Below the pieces are notes generated by a model. That model worked only from the letters and a program-made list of their open reading frames with translations. It did not search any database and had not been told where the DNA came from. From NCBI RefSeq assembly GCF_003286915.1, contig NZ_QMFY01000001.1, forward strand, positions 992,001 through 1,056,000: a stretch of DNA of 64,000 bases, given 5' to 3'. A program made the translations under genes and the position numbers. This document shows, one piece after another, positions 37,591 to 58,477 of the stretch (positions within the stretch are counted from its first letter, which is position 1; every line of letters begins with the position of its first letter). This stretch comes from Pseudochryseolinea flava. Lineage in GTDB: Bacteria; Bacteroidota; Bacteroidia; Cytophagales; Cyclobacteriaceae.

Positions 37591-37906
37591 CGGAATAATT
37601 AAGGTGTCAAATTACAAACAAAATACGCAACTGTGGACCGGATTGTTGGATTCTGGGGTGCAATAAGGCTTGATCGACGTTAAAAGAATCCATGTCCGCG
37701 ACAGATTTCAGCTTCGCGCTCAATCTTGTTTGAATTTCAAATGAATGCTTTAGGTAAAAGCCGTATTTTCTCGTCTTAGTAGAAAGCCGGCAATAACAGA
37801 TGGTAACCGATTACATCAACTGTAGCCTAAACGACATCAGTGGTTTTGGGAATAAAACTTAACATCGGATATTGTGGCCGCAAGAAACATTTTTAACCCA
37901 CTGTTC
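37591..37906. other. Intergenic region, no gene seen
   Basis: This 316-base stretch separates the divergent M20 and DUF1080/PA14 genes. I see no coding ORF with family features, no hairpin and no clear TAnnTTTG/-33 pair, though promoters for both genes must lie here. Confidence 0.6.
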
Positions 37907-39805
37907 ATGAAGAAAAAAAGTATTTTGTTTTCGCTGATGCTGTTCAGTGCTGCAGTCGCGGCACAAGAGACGCCAGTGAAAACCCTTCCCTTCAACGACA
38001 TGTCTTCCTTTAAGCCCCAAGCAGGAAACTGGCAAGTTGTAGGCGATGTTGTGATGGATCGCAATGTTGATTCACATCCTGTTGCTAAATCGATTGAGCA
38101 AACGTCGCCGGGAAAGAAGAAAAAAGGTAAAGAAGCAACACCTCCACCAGCACCTAAAGCGGTTAGCTTTCAGCCAGGCACAGGCATTCTCCTTAACATG
38201 AATGACGACACACACAAAGACAACCTGGTGTCGGCTTTCGAACATGGCGATATCGAACTTGAATTTGAAGTAATGCTGCCCAAAGGATCGAACTCTGGCA
38301 TTTACTTGCAAGGAAGATATGAAGTGCAGCTCTACGATAGCTGGGGCGTAAAAGAAGCGAAGTTTTCCGACATCGGCGGCATCTATCGCAACTGGGAGAA
38401 TAAGCCTGGTAAAATTTATATGGGCAAGGCGCCGCTAAGCAATCCGGCAAAGGCACCAGGTCTCTGGCAAAAAATGAAAATCGTTTTTCGTGCACCTCGC
38501 TTCGACGCAGCGGGTAATAAAATAGCTAACGCGAAGTTTGTAACGGTTTCATTGAACGATGTAGTGATACACGACAACGTAGAGGTACCGTTGCCAACCG
38601 GCGGTCCGATTGAGAACAACGAGAAGGCTATGGGTCCATTGATGATACAAGGTGACCACGGCGCTGTGGCGTTTAGAAATTTTAAGTACAAGCTCACAAA
38701 GGAAATTAGCATCACCGTGAGTGATGTTACCTACAAAACATATCAGGGTGCATTTAAAAGTGTCGATGAATTTGCATCCCTTAAACCAGCGACCACCGGA
38801 TCAAGCCCTGAGCTGACTGCAGAAGTAATTCCTGACGAAAATAATTACGGTGTGATTTACACAGGAAAGGTTACTGTACCGGAAGATGCAGAATATGAAT
38901 TCTACCTTGCGGTGACAGGCGGTTTAAAGTTTGTTGTCAATAATCAAACGCTCGTTGATCATCAAACGAATTCTCGTGGAAGACGCGGACAGAAGATTAC
39001 GCTAAAAGCTGGAACGTATCCATTTGAGATCTACAATTTCAAAACATCATCATGGATGCCGCCACGTCTTGGTTGGTATGCGCGCACAGAAAATTCTTAT
39101 GTTAATACTTTAACGGCTTATAATTCTTTTCCACCGGATGATGAGCCAACGTCGCCAATTCTAATTCATGTTGGAAGCTCACCAAAATTGTTGCGTGCGT
39201 TTCTCGATTTCAAAAGAAACCGGGGACAGCGGCTTACTCATACCATTGGTGTAGGCGATCCTTCAGGTGTGAATTATGTGTATGATCTTGGCGCGGCAAA
39301 TCTTGTTTGTGTATGGCGCGGCGATTTTGTTGACGCTACACCGATGTGGCACGAACGCGGCGATGGCTCATTCCGTCCTCTCGGTGCTGTGCAGTATCTA
39401 CTCGCAGGTCCGTCGCTGGTATCGCTTGCAAGTGAAGCGGAAGATTTTCCGACTACTTACAAGGAAGGTAGTTATAAGTCGAAAGGCTATTCCATCGAAG
39501 AATCGACAGGACGTCCGATCTTTAAGTTTTCGCTTGATGGACTCGACGTTGATGATAAGATCACGCCTGATGGCACAATCATTACACGCGAGCTTACGCT
39601 AAAAAATAAAGGAGCACAACCACTTTATTTCAAACTCGCGGAAGGTACATCGATCATTAAAATGGCCGACGGTTCATACGCGATTGATGACAAACAATTT
39701 TACATTAAGACGGACCATGCAGCAACGATCCGCGAGTCAGGTGATAAAAAGTCACTCGTTGTAAAAGTAGAAGGCAATGCTGTTAAGTACACTGTCATCT
39801 GGTAA
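37907..39805 (+). CDS. Exported DUF1080 (3-keto-disaccharide hydrolase-like) protein with PA14-like domain
   Basis: A 632-residue exported protein with signal peptide MKKKSILFSLMLFSAAVAA. The N-terminal part (about 25-265) is a DUF1080/3-keto-disaccharide hydrolase-like jelly roll (GTGILLNMNDDTH, LPKGSNSGIYLQGRYEVQL, VEVPLPTGGPIEN). The next part (about 275-400) is PA14-like (EYEFYLAVTGGLKFVVNNQ, GTYPFEIYNF). The C-terminal region is unassigned. The ATG at 37907 fits the signal peptide. The sorbosone-dehydrogenase-like gene begins 13 bases after its stop. Confidence 0.8.
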   Translation: MKKKSILFSLMLFSAAVAAQETPVKTLPFNDMSSFKPQAGNWQVVGDVVMDRNVDSHPVAKSIEQTSPGKKKKGKEATPPPAPKAVSFQPGTGILLNMNDDTHKDNLVSAFEHGDIELEFEVMLPKGSNSGIYLQGRYEVQLYDSWGVKEAKFSDIGGIYRNWENKPGKIYMGKAPLSNPAKAPGLWQKMKIVFRAPRFDAAGNKIANAKFVTVSLNDVVIHDNVEVPLPTGGPIENNEKAMGPLMIQGDHGAVAFRNFKYKLTKEISITVSDVTYKTYQGAFKSVDEFASLKPATTGSSPELTAEVIPDENNYGVIYTGKVTVPEDAEYEFYLAVTGGLKFVVNNQTLVDHQTNSRGRRGQKITLKAGTYPFEIYNFKTSSWMPPRLGWYARTENSYVNTLTAYNSFPPDDEPTSPILIHVGSSPKLLRAFLDFKRNRGQRLTHTIGVGDPSGVNYVYDLGAANLVCVWRGDFVDATPMWHERGDGSFRPLGAVQYLLAGPSLVSLASEAEDFPTTYKEGSYKSKGYSIEESTGRPIFKFSLDGLDVDDKITPDGTIITRELTLKNKGAQPLYFKLAEGTSIIKMADGSYAIDDKQFYIKTDHAATIRESGDKKSLVVKVEGNAVKYTVIW

Positions 39806-39818
39806 ACTAGAAATGATC

Positions 39819-41762
39819 ATGAACAAAAAATATAAGGATATGATTTTGTCATTGACATCCATGCTGATGTTGGTGACGTCGATGGCAGTTGCACAGAAAT
39901 TGCCTGTTGAGGAAGATTATTATAAGATCATCACCATCCCAACGCCGGAAGGAATATTATTGGAAGTCGGGGGTGTCGCAACATTGCAAGATGGACGTAT
40001 TGCTGTGAGCACGCGTCGTGGCGATGTTTACGTGATCGAAAACGCATCCATGGAGAACGGCGCATCTCCTACGTTTAAACTTTTCGCATCGGGACTGCAT
40101 GAGCCGCTAGGTCTTCTCTACAAAGACAATGCACTATATGCAGCGCAACGTGGAGAGCTTACAAAGCTCGTCGATACTAATGGTGATGGTAAAGCAGATG
40201 TCTATGAAACTGTATATGCATGGCCTCTATCGGGACATTATCATGAATATTCTTTCGGTCCGAAACTTAGTCCCGACGGTGCATTTTTTGTAACAGGCAA
40301 CGTAGCGTTCGGTGATGAAGAATGGTGGCGCGGCGAGAGTCGTAGACCTTGGAGAGGATGGACGATGAAAATTTATCCTGATGGCAAAATGGAACCATGG
40401 GCTACCGGGATGCGCTCACCTTGCGGATTAGGAATGATCAACGGAGAATTTTTCTATGATGATAACCAAGGTGATTGGATGGGATCAGGTGGTGTATGGC
40501 ACGTTCGTAAAGGAGATTTTACAGGCCATCCAGCTGGTTTACGCTGGACAGGCGAACCGAATTCTCCCGTGAAATTAACGGTTGATCAGCTCTACGCGAA
40601 AGTAGATCCACGTAGAAACAAAATGAACGGCCATTATGTAAAGCCTGAAAATGTTGTGGATGAAAAACCAGATTTTCTATTCGAGGTTAAAAAACAATTT
40701 CCAGAAGTGAAGTTGCCTGCGGTGTGGCTTCCGCACGGTGTGTTGGGTATTTCGAATTCTGAAATTATCAGCGATGAAACAAAAGGAAAGTTTGGTCCTT
40801 TTGCCGGACAAATTTTTGTAGGCGATCAAGGACAAAGTAAGATTATGCGCGTGGTGTTAGAGGAAGTGAAGGGTGAACTTCAAGGTGTTGCTTTTGATTT
40901 TAGATCAGGCTTTCAATCAGGCGTGTTACGTATGAACTGGGGTCACGACGGATCGTTGTATGCTGGTGAAACAAACCGTGGTTGGGGATCGGCTGGTACT
41001 ACAAACTCTGGATTACAGCGTTTAAAATGGACTGGTAAACTTCCATTCGAAATGAAAACAGTTAGCGCTCGTCCTGATGGTTTTGAAATAACATTCACAA
41101 AACCTGTAGATAAGAAGACAGCTGAGGATTTAGCATCTTATGGTGGACGCAGTTTTATTTATAAATATCATCCTGTGTACGGTAGCCCTACCGTGAGTGA
41201 CGAGAAACTAAATATTAAAGGCGTGAAAGTTTACGAAGATGGACTTCGTGTTCATATTGTCGTCGAAAATCTTCGTCAGTATTATATTCATGAATTGAAT
41301 TTAACGGGTATCCGTTCTGCGGATGGATTACCGGTGCTTCACAGTACAGCGTATTATACTTTGAATAACATTCCTGAAGGCGCTAAAATTCCGGCCAGTG
41401 AATTAAGTATCAAACGCTCTAAAGCGCCTGCAACATTGCCAGCACCGAAAGTGAAATCAACGGCATCAACAACGACTACAAAAGCACCTACATATGCTGA
41501 GATTGAACCGTTGTTAGTCAAGAACACTTGTACAGCTTGTCATCAAACCAAGAAGCGCCAAGTGGGTCCTTCATTTGTTGATGTTGCTAAACGTAAATAT
41601 TCTAACGAACGGATTGTGCAGTTGATCTACAATCCTGAACCCAAAAATTGGCCAGAACATGAAACGCCAATGGCACCGATGCCACAGGTTCCGCGCGCAG
41701 AGGCGTTAAAAATTGCCGCATGGATTAACTCATTGCGTGTTGAAAAAGAGCCTACGCCATAG
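39819..41762 (+). CDS. Exported glucose/sorbosone dehydrogenase-like protein with C-terminal cytochrome c domain
   Basis: A 647-residue exported protein. A signal peptide (MNKKYKDMILSLTSMLMLVTS...) is followed by a beta-propeller-like sugar dehydrogenase region (LVDTNGDGKADVYETVYAWP, WATGMRSPCGLG, HGVLGISNSE), as in the membrane-bound dehydrogenases of Bacteroidetes and Planctomycetes. Near the C-terminus is a class I cytochrome c heme site, CTACHQ, with a downstream Met ligand likely in MAPMPQVPR. Electrons from an oxidised sugar would pass to the heme (inference). The start is the ATG at 39819; 39813 is also possible. Confidence 0.82.
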   Translation: MNKKYKDMILSLTSMLMLVTSMAVAQKLPVEEDYYKIITIPTPEGILLEVGGVATLQDGRIAVSTRRGDVYVIENASMENGASPTFKLFASGLHEPLGLLYKDNALYAAQRGELTKLVDTNGDGKADVYETVYAWPLSGHYHEYSFGPKLSPDGAFFVTGNVAFGDEEWWRGESRRPWRGWTMKIYPDGKMEPWATGMRSPCGLGMINGEFFYDDNQGDWMGSGGVWHVRKGDFTGHPAGLRWTGEPNSPVKLTVDQLYAKVDPRRNKMNGHYVKPENVVDEKPDFLFEVKKQFPEVKLPAVWLPHGVLGISNSEIISDETKGKFGPFAGQIFVGDQGQSKIMRVVLEEVKGELQGVAFDFRSGFQSGVLRMNWGHDGSLYAGETNRGWGSAGTTNSGLQRLKWTGKLPFEMKTVSARPDGFEITFTKPVDKKTAEDLASYGGRSFIYKYHPVYGSPTVSDEKLNIKGVKVYEDGLRVHIVVENLRQYYIHELNLTGIRSADGLPVLHSTAYYTLNNIPEGAKIPASELSIKRSKAPATLPAPKVKSTASTTTTKAPTYAEIEPLLVKNTCTACHQTKKRQVGPSFVDVAKRKYSNERIVQLIYNPEPKNWPEHETPMAPMPQVPRAEALKIAAWINSLRVEKEPTP

Positions 41763-54019: not shown

Positions 54020-55714
54020 ATGATGTTGAATATTGATGCAGCAAAAAAACAAACTTACGATGCCATCGTCGTGGGTTCTGGAATTTCAGGCGGTTGGGCG
54101 GCGAAGGAACTTTGCGAAAAAGGATTGAAAGTGTTATTGCTTGAGCGCGGAAAAAATGTACAACATCCTGACTATCCAAATTCCACCAAAGATCCGTGGG
54201 AGCTACCGCACCGGAATGAATTAACATTCGCCGATATTGAGAGAAGTCCGATACAACATCGTCATTATGCTTATCAGGAAGCGAATAAACATTTCTTCAT
54301 CAATGATCTTGAAAATCCATACACCGAAGTCAAACGCTTCGATTGGATTAGACCCGATGTTGTGGGTGGAAAGAGTTTGCTGTGGGGAAGACATTGTTAT
54401 CGATGGAGTGATTTAGACTTTACGGCAAATTTAAAGGAGGGTGTCGCCGTCGATTGGCCCATTCGCTACAATGACCTTGCCCCTTGGTATGATTATGTTG
54501 AAAAATTTATCGGTGTGAGTGGTCAGTCGGAAGGAATTTCGCATTTGCCCGATGGCCACTTTCAACCACCAATGGAAATGAATTGCGTCGAAGCTGACTT
54601 TAAGAAAACAATTGAAGGGAAGTTTTCGGGTAGGAAAATCATTATGGGGCGCATTGCAAATCTCACTCAGCCTGTTAAAGGTCGCGGTGTTTGTAAGTCG
54701 CGAAATCTTTGTCACCGCGGTTGTCCGTGGGGTGGATATTTTAGCACCAATGCAAGTACACTCCCGGCTGCATTTGCCACGGGAAATTTAACACTACTTC
54801 CGAATAGTCTGGTGAATCGTGTGCTGTACGATGAAGCAAAGGGAAAAGCCTCAGGTGTAGAAGTTATTAACACGGAAACAAATGAAGTAACAGAATATTT
54901 CGCACGCATCATCTTTCTCAATGCAAACACTGTGGCAACCGGTTTTATTTTGCTGAACTCAATGTCGAGTCGATTTGAAAATGGATTGGGAAATGATAGT
55001 GATCAAGTGGGTAGGAATTTAATGGATCATCACAAACACGCTGGGGCAACCGCTGATGTTGAAGGATATGAAGATTACTATTATTATGTGCGCCGGCCGA
55101 ATACATTGTATGTACCACGATACCGAAATCTTAGTAACGAGCGTAAAGATTATCGGAGAGGATTTGGATTGATGGGCGGGGCTTATCGAAACGGATGGCA
55201 TAGCCACATCATGAGTGAAGAAATAGGCGTGTCACTAAAAGAAAATGTTCAGACGCCGGGGCAATGGAAAATTAAACTCGACGGATATGGTGAGTGTTTA
55301 CCTTATCAAGAGAATCGGATTACGCTTAACACGGATAAGAAGGATAAGTTTGGACGAAATACATTGACAATTGACTGCGAGTATAAATCGAATGAGTTGA
55401 ATATGCAGAAGGACATGGCTGCATCAGTGGCAGAGATGTTTGAAGCTGCAGGATTCAAAAACGTAAAAAGTTTTATAAATACGTCTGCACCTGGTAATAC
55501 AAATCATGAAATGGGAATTGCTCGTATGGGGCGTGATCGAAAGACTTCAGTGTTGAATGCTTTCAATCAGATGCATGATGTAAAGAATGTTTTTATAACC
55601 GATGGATCATGCATGACAAGTTCATCATGTGTCAATCCGTCGCTTACATACATGGCGCTTACCGCCAGAGCATGCGACTATGCTGTGAAAGAACTAAACC
55701 GATTAAACCTATAA
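54020..55714 (+). CDS. GMC oxidoreductase
   Basis: A 564-residue FAD-dependent alcohol/sugar oxidoreductase. The N-terminal dinucleotide motif [15 protein letters not shown] lies at about residues 17-31, then the FAD-binding [13 protein letters not shown]. The C-terminal active site shows [12 protein letters not shown] (catalytic His) and [18 protein letters not shown] (second conserved Asn). No signal peptide is obvious. It opens a three-gene unit with a DUF1080 protein 5 bases downstream and a Gfo/Idh/MocA enzyme 22 bases beyond that. A glycoside-oxidising role is inferred from this context. Confidence 0.9.
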
Positions 55715-55719
55715 TAAAA

Positions 55720-57069
55720 ATGACGAATCGAATTTTGATGTTCCTGCTGGTGTTGTCCATTCCTTCTTTTGCACAGAAGAAGGATAAAACTTGGCGCTAT
55801 CTTTTTAATGGAAAGGACCTCTCAGGGTGGAAACAAGTTAATGGAAAGGCTCCTTATGCCGTGGAGAATGGTATGATCGTGGGAACAACGGTTGCTGAAT
55901 CGCCAAATTCTTTTCTGGCAACAGAAGAACTTTTTGGTGATTTCATTTTCGAAGTTGAATTCAAAATGGACGACGGTACGAATAGCGGCGTGCAATTTAG
56001 AAGTGAGCAAAGACCGGAAGATGGAAAAGTATTTGGGTATCAGCTCGACATTGATCCAACGCCACGTAAATGGTGTGGAGGAATTTATGATGAATCACGT
56101 CGTCAATGGTTGTATCCTTTAGAGTACAACGTGGCTGCGAAGAATGCATATAAGAATCAACTGTGGAATACAATTCGTATTGAAGCCATCGGAAGTAACA
56201 TGCGTACCTGGATCAATGGTATACCGTGTGCAAATATTGTCGACGACATGACACCAAAAGGTTTTATCGCACTCCAAGTGCACTCAATCAACGATGCGAA
56301 GGACGCTGGAAAAAAAGTATGGTTCAAGAATATTCGAATTAAGACGGAGAATCTTCAAGCATCGCCAATTGATAATATTTTTCAATTGAATCTTCTGCCG
56401 AACAAGATCACGGAACAAGAGAAAGCAAATGGCATTGTGTTGCTTTGGGACGGAAAAACTACGGAAGGATGGCGAGGTGCATACAAGGATAAATTTCCAG
56501 AGGCCGGTTGGGAAATTAAAGACGGTACACTCTCTGTTGTAAAATCTGATGGAGCAGAATCGCGGAATGGTGGAGACATTGTGTCGAACAATGAGTATGC
56601 TGCGTTCGATCTGCAGTTTGAATTTAAGTTAACTGAAGGTGCTAATAGCGGGGTAAAATATTTTGTAACTGAAAAAGAAAACAATCAAGGTTCCGCTATC
56701 GGTCTAGAGTTTCAAATTCTAGATGATGACAAACACCCTGACGCCAAAATGGGCGTTGTTGGGAATCGTACATTATCATCACTCTATGACTTGATTCCGG
56801 CGGCAAAGAATCCACGCGGCATCAAAAAAATTGGCGAGTGGAATCAAGGCCGTGTCATAGTGTATCCTGATAATCGTGTTGAGCATTGGTTGAACGGTTA
56901 TAAAGTAATTGAGTACACACGTGGCAATAACATTTTTAAAGCACTCGTCGCGCGCAGCAAGTACGCAGATTGGCAAAATTTTGGGATGGCGGAACAGGGT
57001 AGAATCTTGCTGCAGGATCACGGTGATAAAGTGTCGTTTCGCAGCATTAAAATTAAAATTCTTAAGTAG
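55720..57069 (+). CDS. Exported tandem DUF1080 (3-keto-disaccharide hydrolase-like) protein
   Basis: A 449-residue exported protein with two DUF1080 jelly-roll domains. The signal peptide is [19 protein letters not shown]. Domain 1 (about 25-215) has [16 protein letters not shown] and [19 protein letters not shown]; domain 2 (about 230-449) has [17 protein letters not shown] and [21 protein letters not shown]1080 proteins have been shown to cleave 3-keto-glycosides. Both copies keep the family's NSGV/SGW motifs. It lies between GMC and Gfo/Idh/MocA genes, fitting a 3-keto-sugar route. Confidence 0.88.
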
Positions 57070-57091
57070 GTCGTCGATTAAAGATTAACAT

Positions 57092-58435
57092 ATGAAATCA
57101 AACCGAAGAAACTTTATTAAGAAATCTGCAGCAGTGGCGTTGGGTGCTATGGCTTTCAGTGCAAAAAGTTATGCGAACATCATTGGCGCTAATGATAAGA
57201 TTAGAGTGGGTGTAGTCGGATTTTCTGATCGTTTTAAATATTCGCTTTTCCCTGCGTTCACACATCACTATCAGAAAAGCAATTTCGATATCGTTGCTGT
57301 CTCTGATCTTTGGAAGAAGCGTAGAGAAGAAGGACAAGCTTTCTTAAAAGAAAAACTTGGCCACGATATTCAGGCTTGTGTGAATAACGATGAATTGTAC
57401 AAGATCAAAGATCTAGATGCTGTCATCATCAGCACGGCTGACTTTCAACACGCGATTCATACCATCGAGGCCGTAAAAGCTGGCTGCGATGCATACACCG
57501 AAAAGCCTTTCGCTGAAACGATGGAGGATAATCGCGCGGCGCTAAAGGCGGTTAAAGAATCGGGCAAGATCGTTCAAATAGGTTCGCAGCGGAGGAGTGG
57601 AAACAATTACCATGCAGCTGCAGAATTCATTCAAGCAGGGAAGTTTGGTCCCATTGTGATGGTTGAACTGAGTTGGAATGTTAATCAACCAGGGCGTTGG
57701 CGTCGCCCCGCATTGGTAGCAGAGCTTCGAGAGCAAGACACAGATTGGAAACGATTTTTATTGAATCGTCCCTTTGAAAATTTCGATCCAAGAAAATATT
57801 TAGAATACAGATTATTCTGGCCCTATTCGTCAGGTATGCCTGGGCAATGGATGAGTCATCAAATAGATACTGTACATTGGTTTACAGGATTAAAACATCC
57901 GCGTAGCGTCGTGGCCAACGGAGGTGTATACATTTGGAAAGATGGTAGACGTAATTGGGATACAACAACGGCTGTGTTCGACTATGGTGCCGAAGATGGA
58001 TCATCGGGATTCCAAGTTACTTTCTCTTCTCGTATGGGTAATGGTGATGAAAACCCGGCGGAGATTTACTACTCAAATGGGGGCGAACTGAATTTGAATA
58101 CGAACAAGGTAACCCCGCGTGGTGGGATGCAAGAGAATCATGCGAAAGCGATGAACCTACATGCTAATCTTTTGCCTGAAACAGATATCACGGTGAGTGC
58201 GGAGAAAGTAGTGGCGTCTGCGGTTACTGGTGGCGATGTATTGACTTCTAATCACATGCTAAATTGGATGCAGAGTGTTAGGAACAGAACGCAACCAAAT
58301 GCGCCGGTAGAAGCAGGATACTATCATTCCATTGCAACTATTATGACGAACGCCGCGGCACGAACAGGCGAGAAAGTAACGTTCGATGAAAAAACGCAAG
58401 AGGTGATGGCAGGAGGAAAAGTATTTAAGTATTAG
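57092..58435 (+). CDS. Gfo/Idh/MocA family oxidoreductase with Tat signal
   Basis: A 447-residue NAD-dependent oxidoreductase. The N-terminus KSNRRNFIKKSAAVALGAMA is a twin-arginine signal, so the protein should be exported folded with its cofactor. The Rossmann part has VGVVGFSDRFK and the family motif CDAYTEKPFAETMEDNRA (EKP, with the catalytic Lys). Such exported enzymes have been linked to glycoside 3-oxidation. It ends the three-gene cluster. Confidence 0.88.
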   Translation: MKSNRRNFIKKSAAVALGAMAFSAKSYANIIGANDKIRVGVVGFSDRFKYSLFPAFTHHYQKSNFDIVAVSDLWKKRREEGQAFLKEKLGHDIQACVNNDELYKIKDLDAVIISTADFQHAIHTIEAVKAGCDAYTEKPFAETMEDNRAALKAVKESGKIVQIGSQRRSGNNYHAAAEFIQAGKFGPIVMVELSWNVNQPGRWRRPALVAELREQDTDWKRFLLNRPFENFDPRKYLEYRLFWPYSSGMPGQWMSHQIDTVHWFTGLKHPRSVVANGGVYIWKDGRRNWDTTTAVFDYGAEDGSSGFQVTFSSRMGNGDENPAEIYYSNGGELNLNTNKVTPRGGMQENHAKAMNLHANLLPETDITVSAEKVVASAVTGGDVLTSNHMLNWMQSVRNRTQPNAPVEAGYYHSIATIMTNAAARTGEKVTFDEKTQEVMAGGKVFKY

Positions 58436-58454: not shown

Positions 58455-58477
58455 TTCCCCGGGTTTAACCCGGGGAA
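58455..58477. repeat. Perfect 23-base palindrome
   Basis: TTCCCCGGGTT and AACCCGGGGAA flank a single central T, giving an 11-bp perfect stem. No T tract follows on either side, so it may be a transcript-stabilising hairpin, a protein-binding palindrome or a weak terminator after the Gfo/Idh/MocA gene. Confidence 0.75.

Follow-up and report, generated by a model that had tools for sequence, protein, structure and literature searches.

What do a GMC-family dehydrogenase, a tandem DUF1080 protein and a Gfo/Idh/MocA oxidoreductase do together when their genes stand side by side? This question is raised by a locus in Pseudochryseolinea flava (Bacteroidota; Cytophagales; Cyclobacteriaceae). We analyzed a stretch of 64,000 nucleotides, called the window below (contig NZ_QMFY01000001.1, positions 992,001 to 1,056,000), from a genome of 6.54 Mb in 48 contigs. 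Our preferred reading, which we put just short of an even chance, is that the three proteins form an envelope unit for the oxidative cleavage of a glycoside, possibly one of a uronic acid. The GMC protein would pass electrons to respiration, the DUF1080 protein would cleave, and the Gfo protein would serve as a nicotinamide adenine dinucleotide (NAD) shuttle. The parts that we infer are C3 as the site of oxidation, the sequence in which the steps occur, the shuttling by NAD, the use of a subunit borrowed in trans and the substrate of this organism. An earlier note on this DNA had proposed a 3-keto-glycoside cleavage unit. Families and context fit that proposal, and C3 oxidation followed by 3-keto cleavage is plausible; the note foresaw neither the link to uronates nor a GMC protein without a partner gene.

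The three genes are adjacent on the plus strand with gaps of 5 and 22 bases, as had been described, and both the open reading frames (ORFs) and the Pfam families confirm this. Upstream lies carB, on the minus strand, and downstream a homogentisate-dioxygenase-like gene. The trio is therefore an isolated three-gene unit; between these two flanking genes there is no ORF for a TIM-barrel hydratase/isomerase. The same order of GMC, tandem DUF1080 and Gfo occurs in Ohtaekwangia koreensis, its uncultured near-copy and Dawidia soli (L134-L136), with gaps of 34/26 or 9/18 bases. Chryseolinea serpens has GMC-Gfo-DUF6807 beside carB, and its sole tandem DUF1080 gene is on another contig. In all five genomes the GMC gene has carB as its immediate upstream neighbor, and the carB of the relatives is 91-93% identical to that of the window. 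Because the same trio order recurs beside carB in relatives, the arrangement is more than chance. The trio is predicted to be one operon-like unit, a claim that shares the not-quite-even standing of the reading to which it belongs.

The export signals claimed for the DUF1080 and Gfo proteins were borne out. The former has a Sec-type leader and the latter a twin-arginine translocation (Tat) leader (MKSNRRNFIKK), both identified by eye, and TatC is encoded in the genome (218.8 bits). The term periplasmic, which the earlier note applied to the whole locus, is less secure for the GMC protein, which has no export signal and no small-subunit gene beside it. Both PF00732 and PF05199 match the GMC protein above cut-off. 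Its closest structures in the PDB are the flavin adenine dinucleotide (FAD) glucose dehydrogenase 6a2u (1.8e-34) and the fructose dehydrogenase large subunit 7w2j, and its FAD motif, GSGISGG, lies near the N end. The Gfo protein matches PF01408 and PF22725 above cut-off. PF06439 matches the DUF1080 protein twice (289.3 bits in total). Where a single-domain DUF1080 homologue stands beside Gfo (8/25 order-level loci, see below), it corresponds to domain 2 (52-68% identical) and domain 1 is missing. Polar positions conserved in at least 95% of 50 tandem proteins include E330, Q332, D335, H339 and D341 of domain 2, at most candidates for the active site. Of the two domains, the second is the likelier to be catalytic.

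Glucose, fructose and glycoside dehydrogenases of the GMC type normally pair with a small Tat subunit. Among 65 other GMC proteins that we fetched, 55 have a Gluconate_2-dh3 (PF13618) small-subunit gene within two genes; the remaining 10, some of them at contig ends, have none within that distance. These proteins are mostly the best matches to P0001 and not a random set, and the window's GMC protein stands beside them as the 66th. Its genome encodes five GMC genes by Pfam domain and three PF13618 genes, the latter on contigs C46, C7 and C3 and none on the contig of the trio (C11). The GMC proteins of the window, O. koreensis, the near-copy, D. soli, C. serpens and one further locus (L151) form one clade with support 100/100. 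Each of these six genomes carries 2-7 PF13618 genes elsewhere and 3-8 GMC genes of this type; PF13618 is either not on the GMC contig or, if on it, not within 600 kb. Three further GMC proteins (L241-L243), which come from different families within the class, fall into the clade (Shimodaira-Hasegawa-like approximate likelihood ratio test, SH-aLRT, 99), making nine sampled members in all; reading 17-20 kb around these three turned up no PF13618 gene. L241 stands alone and L242 and L243 lie beside a TIM-barrel-like gene, with no DUF1080 or this Gfo in the stretch read.

This partnerless clade has its own marks. Asn495 is present in 9/9 clade members, with Ile or Val at this position in 70/72 other GMC proteins, and the neighboring His is kept in 81/81. 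Position 463 is Gln or His in the clade and Arg in 60/72 of the others. The C-X5-C-X3-C spacing is what we take to be that of the 3Fe-4S ligands in glucose and fructose dehydrogenases, and N539 is presumably the Asn partner of the His. Of the positions conserved in partnered GMC proteins, 143/151 are kept in the window's protein and 142-148/151 across the six clade members. These retained residues point to selection, as would be expected of a clade that is not decaying. At three loci (L095, L096 and L247) one small subunit stands beside two to five GMC genes, and sharing is therefore plausible. With no small subunit of its own, the GMC protein probably borrows one encoded at another site in the genome, both to be exported and to pass its electrons on.

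Some neighboring GMC loci deserve mention in their own right. L247 (1386-12077; G391 contig C67) has five consecutive GMC genes, after which come a single small-subunit gene and a TIM-barrel-like one. The fifth GMC gene of the window genome (L024, 5983-7916, contig C46) is preceded by a gene for a 127-aa twin-arginine protein that is not among the PF13618 matches and is perhaps another type of small subunit. A second, separate GMC clade (L080, L084 and L090; more widely L248-L250) also has no small-subunit gene found nearby, so loss of the neighbor seemingly happened more than once.

How widely does this arrangement occur? We searched 118 genomes of the same order for matches to the Gfo, DUF1080 and GMC proteins, with a threshold of E 1e-60 for Gfo and GMC. 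The Gfo was found in 31/118 genomes, as was a matching DUF1080 protein. A GMC protein of the fructose-dehydrogenase type occurs in 29/31 genomes with this Gfo and in 18/87 without it (Fisher p 4e-13, not corrected for kinship). In 25 order-level loci, which exclude three (L036, L040 and L053) whose Gfo the ORF finder missed, a tandem DUF1080 gene lies beside Gfo in 8 and a single-domain one in 8. Across genome_contigs, at least 569 Gfo relatives were confirmed, among 594 pattern hits. We read the best 80 of these, 71-85% identical in the best segment, as the genome_contigs loci; distant relatives are outside this sample. The gene just before Gfo is a tandem DUF1080 gene in 46/80 of these loci, and a GMC gene lies within 6 genes of Gfo in 5/80. 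At L151 the clade GMC gene is four genes upstream of Gfo. A second GMC-Gfo adjacency is found at L054, whose GMC protein falls outside the clade with unsure placing. On this distribution, DUF1080-Gfo is the older core and GMC is an addition bound to the Ohtaekwangia/Dawidia/Chryseolinea lineage, with few occurrences outside it.

Unbiased clustering of 108 loci recovered Gfo in 104, tandem DUF1080 in 67, DUF6807 in 48, an SDR-like family in 21, and SusC-like and SusD-like families in 12 and 10. A metallo-hydrolase-like family, a 300-residue Tat-leader family resembling TIM-barrel proteins and UxuA each occur at eight loci, and three families, UxaC among them, at seven. The labels UxuA, UxaC, DUF6807 and TIM barrel come from Pfam on representatives, the others from likeness. 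DUF6807 (for example L045, 5329-6348) lies a median of one gene from Gfo, on the same strand in 44/46 cases, and is absent beside the window's trio.

A hint to the substrate comes from hexuronate genes (UxuA, UxaC, UxaA or UxaB type; by Pfam, the UxaB reference is only a mannitol-dehydrogenase-family protein). Such genes are present at 12/80 genome_contigs Gfo loci and 2/25 order-level Gfo loci. They were found at 0/60 shorter GMC loci, 0/12 loci of the window genome, the trio's included, and 1/15 loci without this Gfo. The Fisher comparison of 14/105 with 0/60 loci (p 0.0023) overstates the link, since the controls cover less sequence (459 kb in total, against 1,805 kb). UxaC alone occurs at 6/80 loci against 0.26 expected (Poisson p 4e-7), on the assumption of one UxaC per genome, as in six genomes checked, and ignoring kinship. 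UxuA or UxaC occurs at 11 genome_contigs loci, always on the same strand as Gfo, and at three of these loci lies 22-64 bases from it. One cluster (L151/L228) runs UxuA ... UxaB-GMC-cytochrome c/GSDH-TIM barrel-DUF1080x2-Gfo-DUF6807-SDR-UxaC-MFS-UxaA. Besides relatives of all three proteins, UxuA, UxaB, UxaC and UxaA types and an MFS transporter, it encodes two proteins of the TIM-barrel type, a further Gfo and a protein that combines cytochrome c and glucose/sorbosone-dehydrogenase (GSDH) domains. Some DUF1080-Gfo relatives sit inside hexuronate-catabolism clusters, and we therefore regard a glycoside of a uronic acid, or a compound encountered along with uronic acids, as the probable substrate. 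Separately, the cytochrome c/GSDH protein directly after the partnerless GMC protein (L228, 8802-10532) is a candidate electron acceptor.

The Gfo protein departs from the usual family pattern. The NAD loop GxGxxG and an active site of Asp-x3-His are common in the family, though not universal. This protein keeps neither and has G43-F-x-x-R47 and Q252-x3-H256 instead. In a profile alignment to 8tdf and 8tdh, Q252 stands where Alistipes AL3 has Asp (GDMACH), and the His is kept. Its score against the BT_2158 glycoside 3-dehydrogenase family NF058561 is 78.8 bits, far below the curated cut-off of 750. An AlphaFold2 model (predicted local distance difference test, pLDDT, 81.5; predicted template modelling score, pTM, 0.82) has a normal Gfo fold, and its listed structural matches are Gfo/Idh/MocA enzymes. 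Among the best of them, mostly sugar enzymes, are DgpA, WlbA, anhydrofructose reductase, NAD-dependent glycosidases, levoglucosan dehydrogenase and P2B11. We discarded the ranking of these folds as evidence for a substrate, since the scores of many sugar Gfo enzymes are similar (DgpA1 33.7, WlbA 33.6, P2B11 31.4).

How would the three proteins work together? The GMC protein, with flavin and, by its cysteines, a 3Fe-4S cluster, would oxidize the glycoside, most likely at C3, and send the electrons to the respiratory chain. The exported DUF1080 protein would then cleave the 3-keto-glycoside by elimination or hydrolysis. With a fixed NAD(H), the Tat-exported Gfo would move hydride, reducing the released 3-keto-sugar and oxidizing the next glycoside, in a cycle that the GMC protein would prime and top up. 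We propose that the NAD(H) stays bound to the enzyme, since no free NADH is available beyond the cytoplasm. Since this Gfo occurs in a few genomes without such a GMC and in most loci without a linked one, it is suggested to oxidize glycosides itself; the GMC protein would therefore be a primer or booster. A more specific version, which we think decidedly unlikely, has the Asn-marked partnerless GMC protein make the first 3-keto-uronoside as a respiratory primer. After cleavage by DUF1080, the altered-loop Gfo would pass hydride from uronoside to 3-keto-uronate and so feed the Uxa/Uxu route. Export of the GMC protein would depend on a small subunit in trans or on riding with another Tat protein such as Gfo.

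Several results weigh against the preferred reading of an envelope unit with an NAD shuttle. There are no uronate genes beside the window's trio, and the UxaC cluster of its genome is on another contig (C47); none are found at the loci of the trio's nearest relatives either (L134-L137). A uronate gene is not within reach at 68/80 genome_contigs loci. Among the positives, L174 and L186 are near-copies, and L184 has only a distant UxaA on the opposite strand. Of the two order-level positives, L047 has only a UxaB-type gene, and L054 has UxuA on the strand of Gfo and UxaC on the other. The single positive among loci without this Gfo (L065) also carries uronate genes. Of the 31 genomes with the Gfo, 2 lack such a GMC. 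No DUF1080 gene lies beside Gfo in 9/25 order-level loci, and another gene precedes Gfo in 30/80 genome_contigs loci. The distance of the Gfo from NF058561, its changed NAD loop and its Gln for Asp mean that it may not be a C3 dehydrogenase, and its modeled fold singles out no substrate, sugar-type folds scoring alike.

Which known systems does the unit resemble? Exported Gfo and DUF1080 genes lie side by side in what we take to be the BT2156-BT2160 type pathway of Bacteroides (NCBIfam NF058561; PDB 8tda, 8tdf and 8tdh). A TIM-barrel gene, as in that pathway, is found in some relatives (L043, L048), and near clade GMC genes at L151 by Pfam and at L242 and L243 by likeness to that of L151. The window's trio differs in having a GMC, no second Gfo or TIM barrel beside it, and a Gfo far from the BT_2158 family. 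Full-length tandem DUF1080 proteins are already represented in the PDB by 4jqt, a 'putative glycosyl hydrolase' whose entry name assigns no function and which the window's protein matches over its whole mature length and both domains (E 1.4e-161); the tandem form therefore has precedent. We presume that LacA is a GMC protein. According to the accessible text of PMC9007349, the lactose 3-dehydrogenase LacABC occurs with DUF1080 in Caulobacter and Pedobacter, its three dehydrogenase components are all reported to be needed, and periplasmic 3-keto cleavage is proposed. The window shares with LacABC a LacA-type dehydrogenase with a DUF1080 neighbor, but has no small subunit or cytochrome beside the GMC, adds a Gfo with a Tat leader and has a tandem DUF1080. 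The Agrobacterium GlycDH-OGE-HYD-Gfo operon, as described in the portion of PMC10628242 available, performs oxidation, elimination, hydration and reduction, and the Rhizobium glycoside dehydrogenase was expressed together with its Tat protein. That operon likewise places a flavin glycoside dehydrogenase and a Gfo in one pathway, whereas its lyase is a TIM-barrel Mn enzyme rather than DUF1080, and the window has no gene for a Tat partner. A Xanthomonas sacchari plasmid, going by annotated names, groups a GMC homologue (55.6% identical) with a small subunit, a DUF1080 protein and a Gfo within 6 kb. The pairing that had been thought unusual was thus already on record (PMC9007349, PMC10628242). 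Strains deleted for BT2157 or BT2158 are reported to grow on raffinose-family sugars without a defect (PMC11501099, in the part accessible); even the known pathway is therefore dispensable there. The entry title of the glucuronide-3-dehydrogenase P2B11 (8tdi) names glucuronide C3 oxidation; it shares the Gfo/Idh/MocA fold, but the window's Gfo is 17-18% identical to it by structure alignment, with a Z near that of many other sugar Gfo enzymes. GMC with DUF1080, a flavin dehydrogenase with Gfo, all three families together and a solved glucuronide-3-dehydrogenase are therefore already known. Our searches of an open-licence library found no record of this arrangement, of the clade of partnerless GMC proteins, or of the divergent Gfo subfamily and its uronate link.

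These precedents allow a simpler account, which we consider somewhat unlikely. The trio would be an ordinary disaccharide or aryl-glucoside pathway of the LacABC/GlycDH kind, in which GMC alone oxidizes, DUF1080 cleaves and Gfo only reduces 3-keto-glucose, with no role for uronates. The Agrobacterium division of labor among GlycDH, eliminase, hydratase and an NADH-using Gfo (PMC10628242, available portion), the GMC and DUF1080 proposed for lactose use in Caulobacter (PMC9007349, accessible text) and the X. sacchari cluster all speak for it. The Tat leader, however, would place Gfo where NADH is not supplied. The rarity of a linked GMC gene indicates that Gfo is probably more than a finisher of the GMC reaction, and the uronate link of some relatives also argues against a purely ordinary pathway.

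It is unlikely, in our view, that the GMC protein has a separate function and is tied to DUF1080-Gfo by a common promoter only; it might then, for example, be a dehydrogenase of aldoses or polyols with the released sugar or uronate as its substrate. In favor of this, GMC and the pair are found together in no more than one lineage and at L151, besides L054 with its GMC outside the clade; clade members also occur apart from DUF1080 and this Gfo (L241-L243), and the nearest solved structures are glucose and fructose dehydrogenases. Such independence sits poorly with the strong co-occurrence of Gfo and GMC across genomes and with the second adjacency at L054, unsure as the placing of that GMC is. 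Very improbable is an orphan GMC that is a decaying or cytoplasmic leftover while only DUF1080-Gfo works. The lack of a nearby small-subunit gene in 9/9 sampled clade members would suit this view, but the conserved positions, three cysteines, His and clade-wide residues that are kept suggest selection.

Features of the three-gene unit and its downstream flank (positions in the window; aa, amino acids).
Feature	Position	Strand	Remarks
GMC-family FAD dehydrogenase gene	54020..55714	+	564 aa; glucose/fructose-dehydrogenase catalytic-subunit type; no signal peptide
C225-X5-C231-X3-C235	54692..54724	+	all three Cys in 81/81 aligned GMC proteins, own included
N495-H496	55502..55507	+	clade-marking Asn beside conserved, presumed catalytic His
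N539	55634..55636	+	presumed second residue of GMC His-Asn pair; read from sequence
Tandem DUF1080 (3-keto-disaccharide hydrolase) gene	55720..57069	+	449 aa, exported
Sec-type leader	55720..55773	+	by eye
DUF1080 domain 1 (N-type)	55789..56343	+	PF06439 155.2 bits, cut-off 26.8
DUF1080 domain 2 (C-type)	56437..57057	+	PF06439 139.4 bits, cut-off 26.8
Gfo/Idh/MocA oxidoreductase gene	57092..58435	+	447 aa, Tat-type export
R5-R6-N-F8 twin-arginine motif	57104..57115	+	R5, R6 and F8 invariant in 32/32 aligned rows
Altered NAD loop G40-VV-G43-FSD-R47	57209..57232	+	G43, F44 and R47 invariant in 13/13 close homologues
E137-K138-P139, conserved Lys motif	57500..57508	+	invariant 13/13; aligns with EKP of Alistipes AL3 (8tdf/8tdh)
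Q252-W-M-S-H256, presumed active-site segment	57845..57859	+	Q252 and H256 invariant 13/13
Perfect inverted repeat CCCCGGGTT-T-AACCCGGGG	58457..58475		GC-rich, after Gfo gene, without T run; absent from terminator list

Two gene boundaries carry a qualification. GMC orthologues begin MNLN.., so translation may in fact start at the second ATG (54023); the longest ORF for the DUF1080 protein begins at 55609, within the GMC gene. Promoter and terminator scans were at or below the shuffle background (14 against 11.7 and 2 against 4.0) and were not used as evidence. Elsewhere in the window (37874-41762), the gene for another DUF1080 protein, this one with a PA14 domain, overlaps the gene that follows it, which encodes a DUF7133/cytochrome c protein; the two are a possible electron-transfer pair.

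The locus ties a divergent and widespread Gfo subfamily, with at least 569 relatives, to possible hexuronate catabolism, and likewise DUF6807, a Pfam family of unknown function. It also offers a natural test of whether this class of GMC dehydrogenase can work without the small subunit usually encoded beside it, or by sharing one. The hydride shuttle, if true, would account for the ability of an exported NAD enzyme to turn over when no NADH is supplied.

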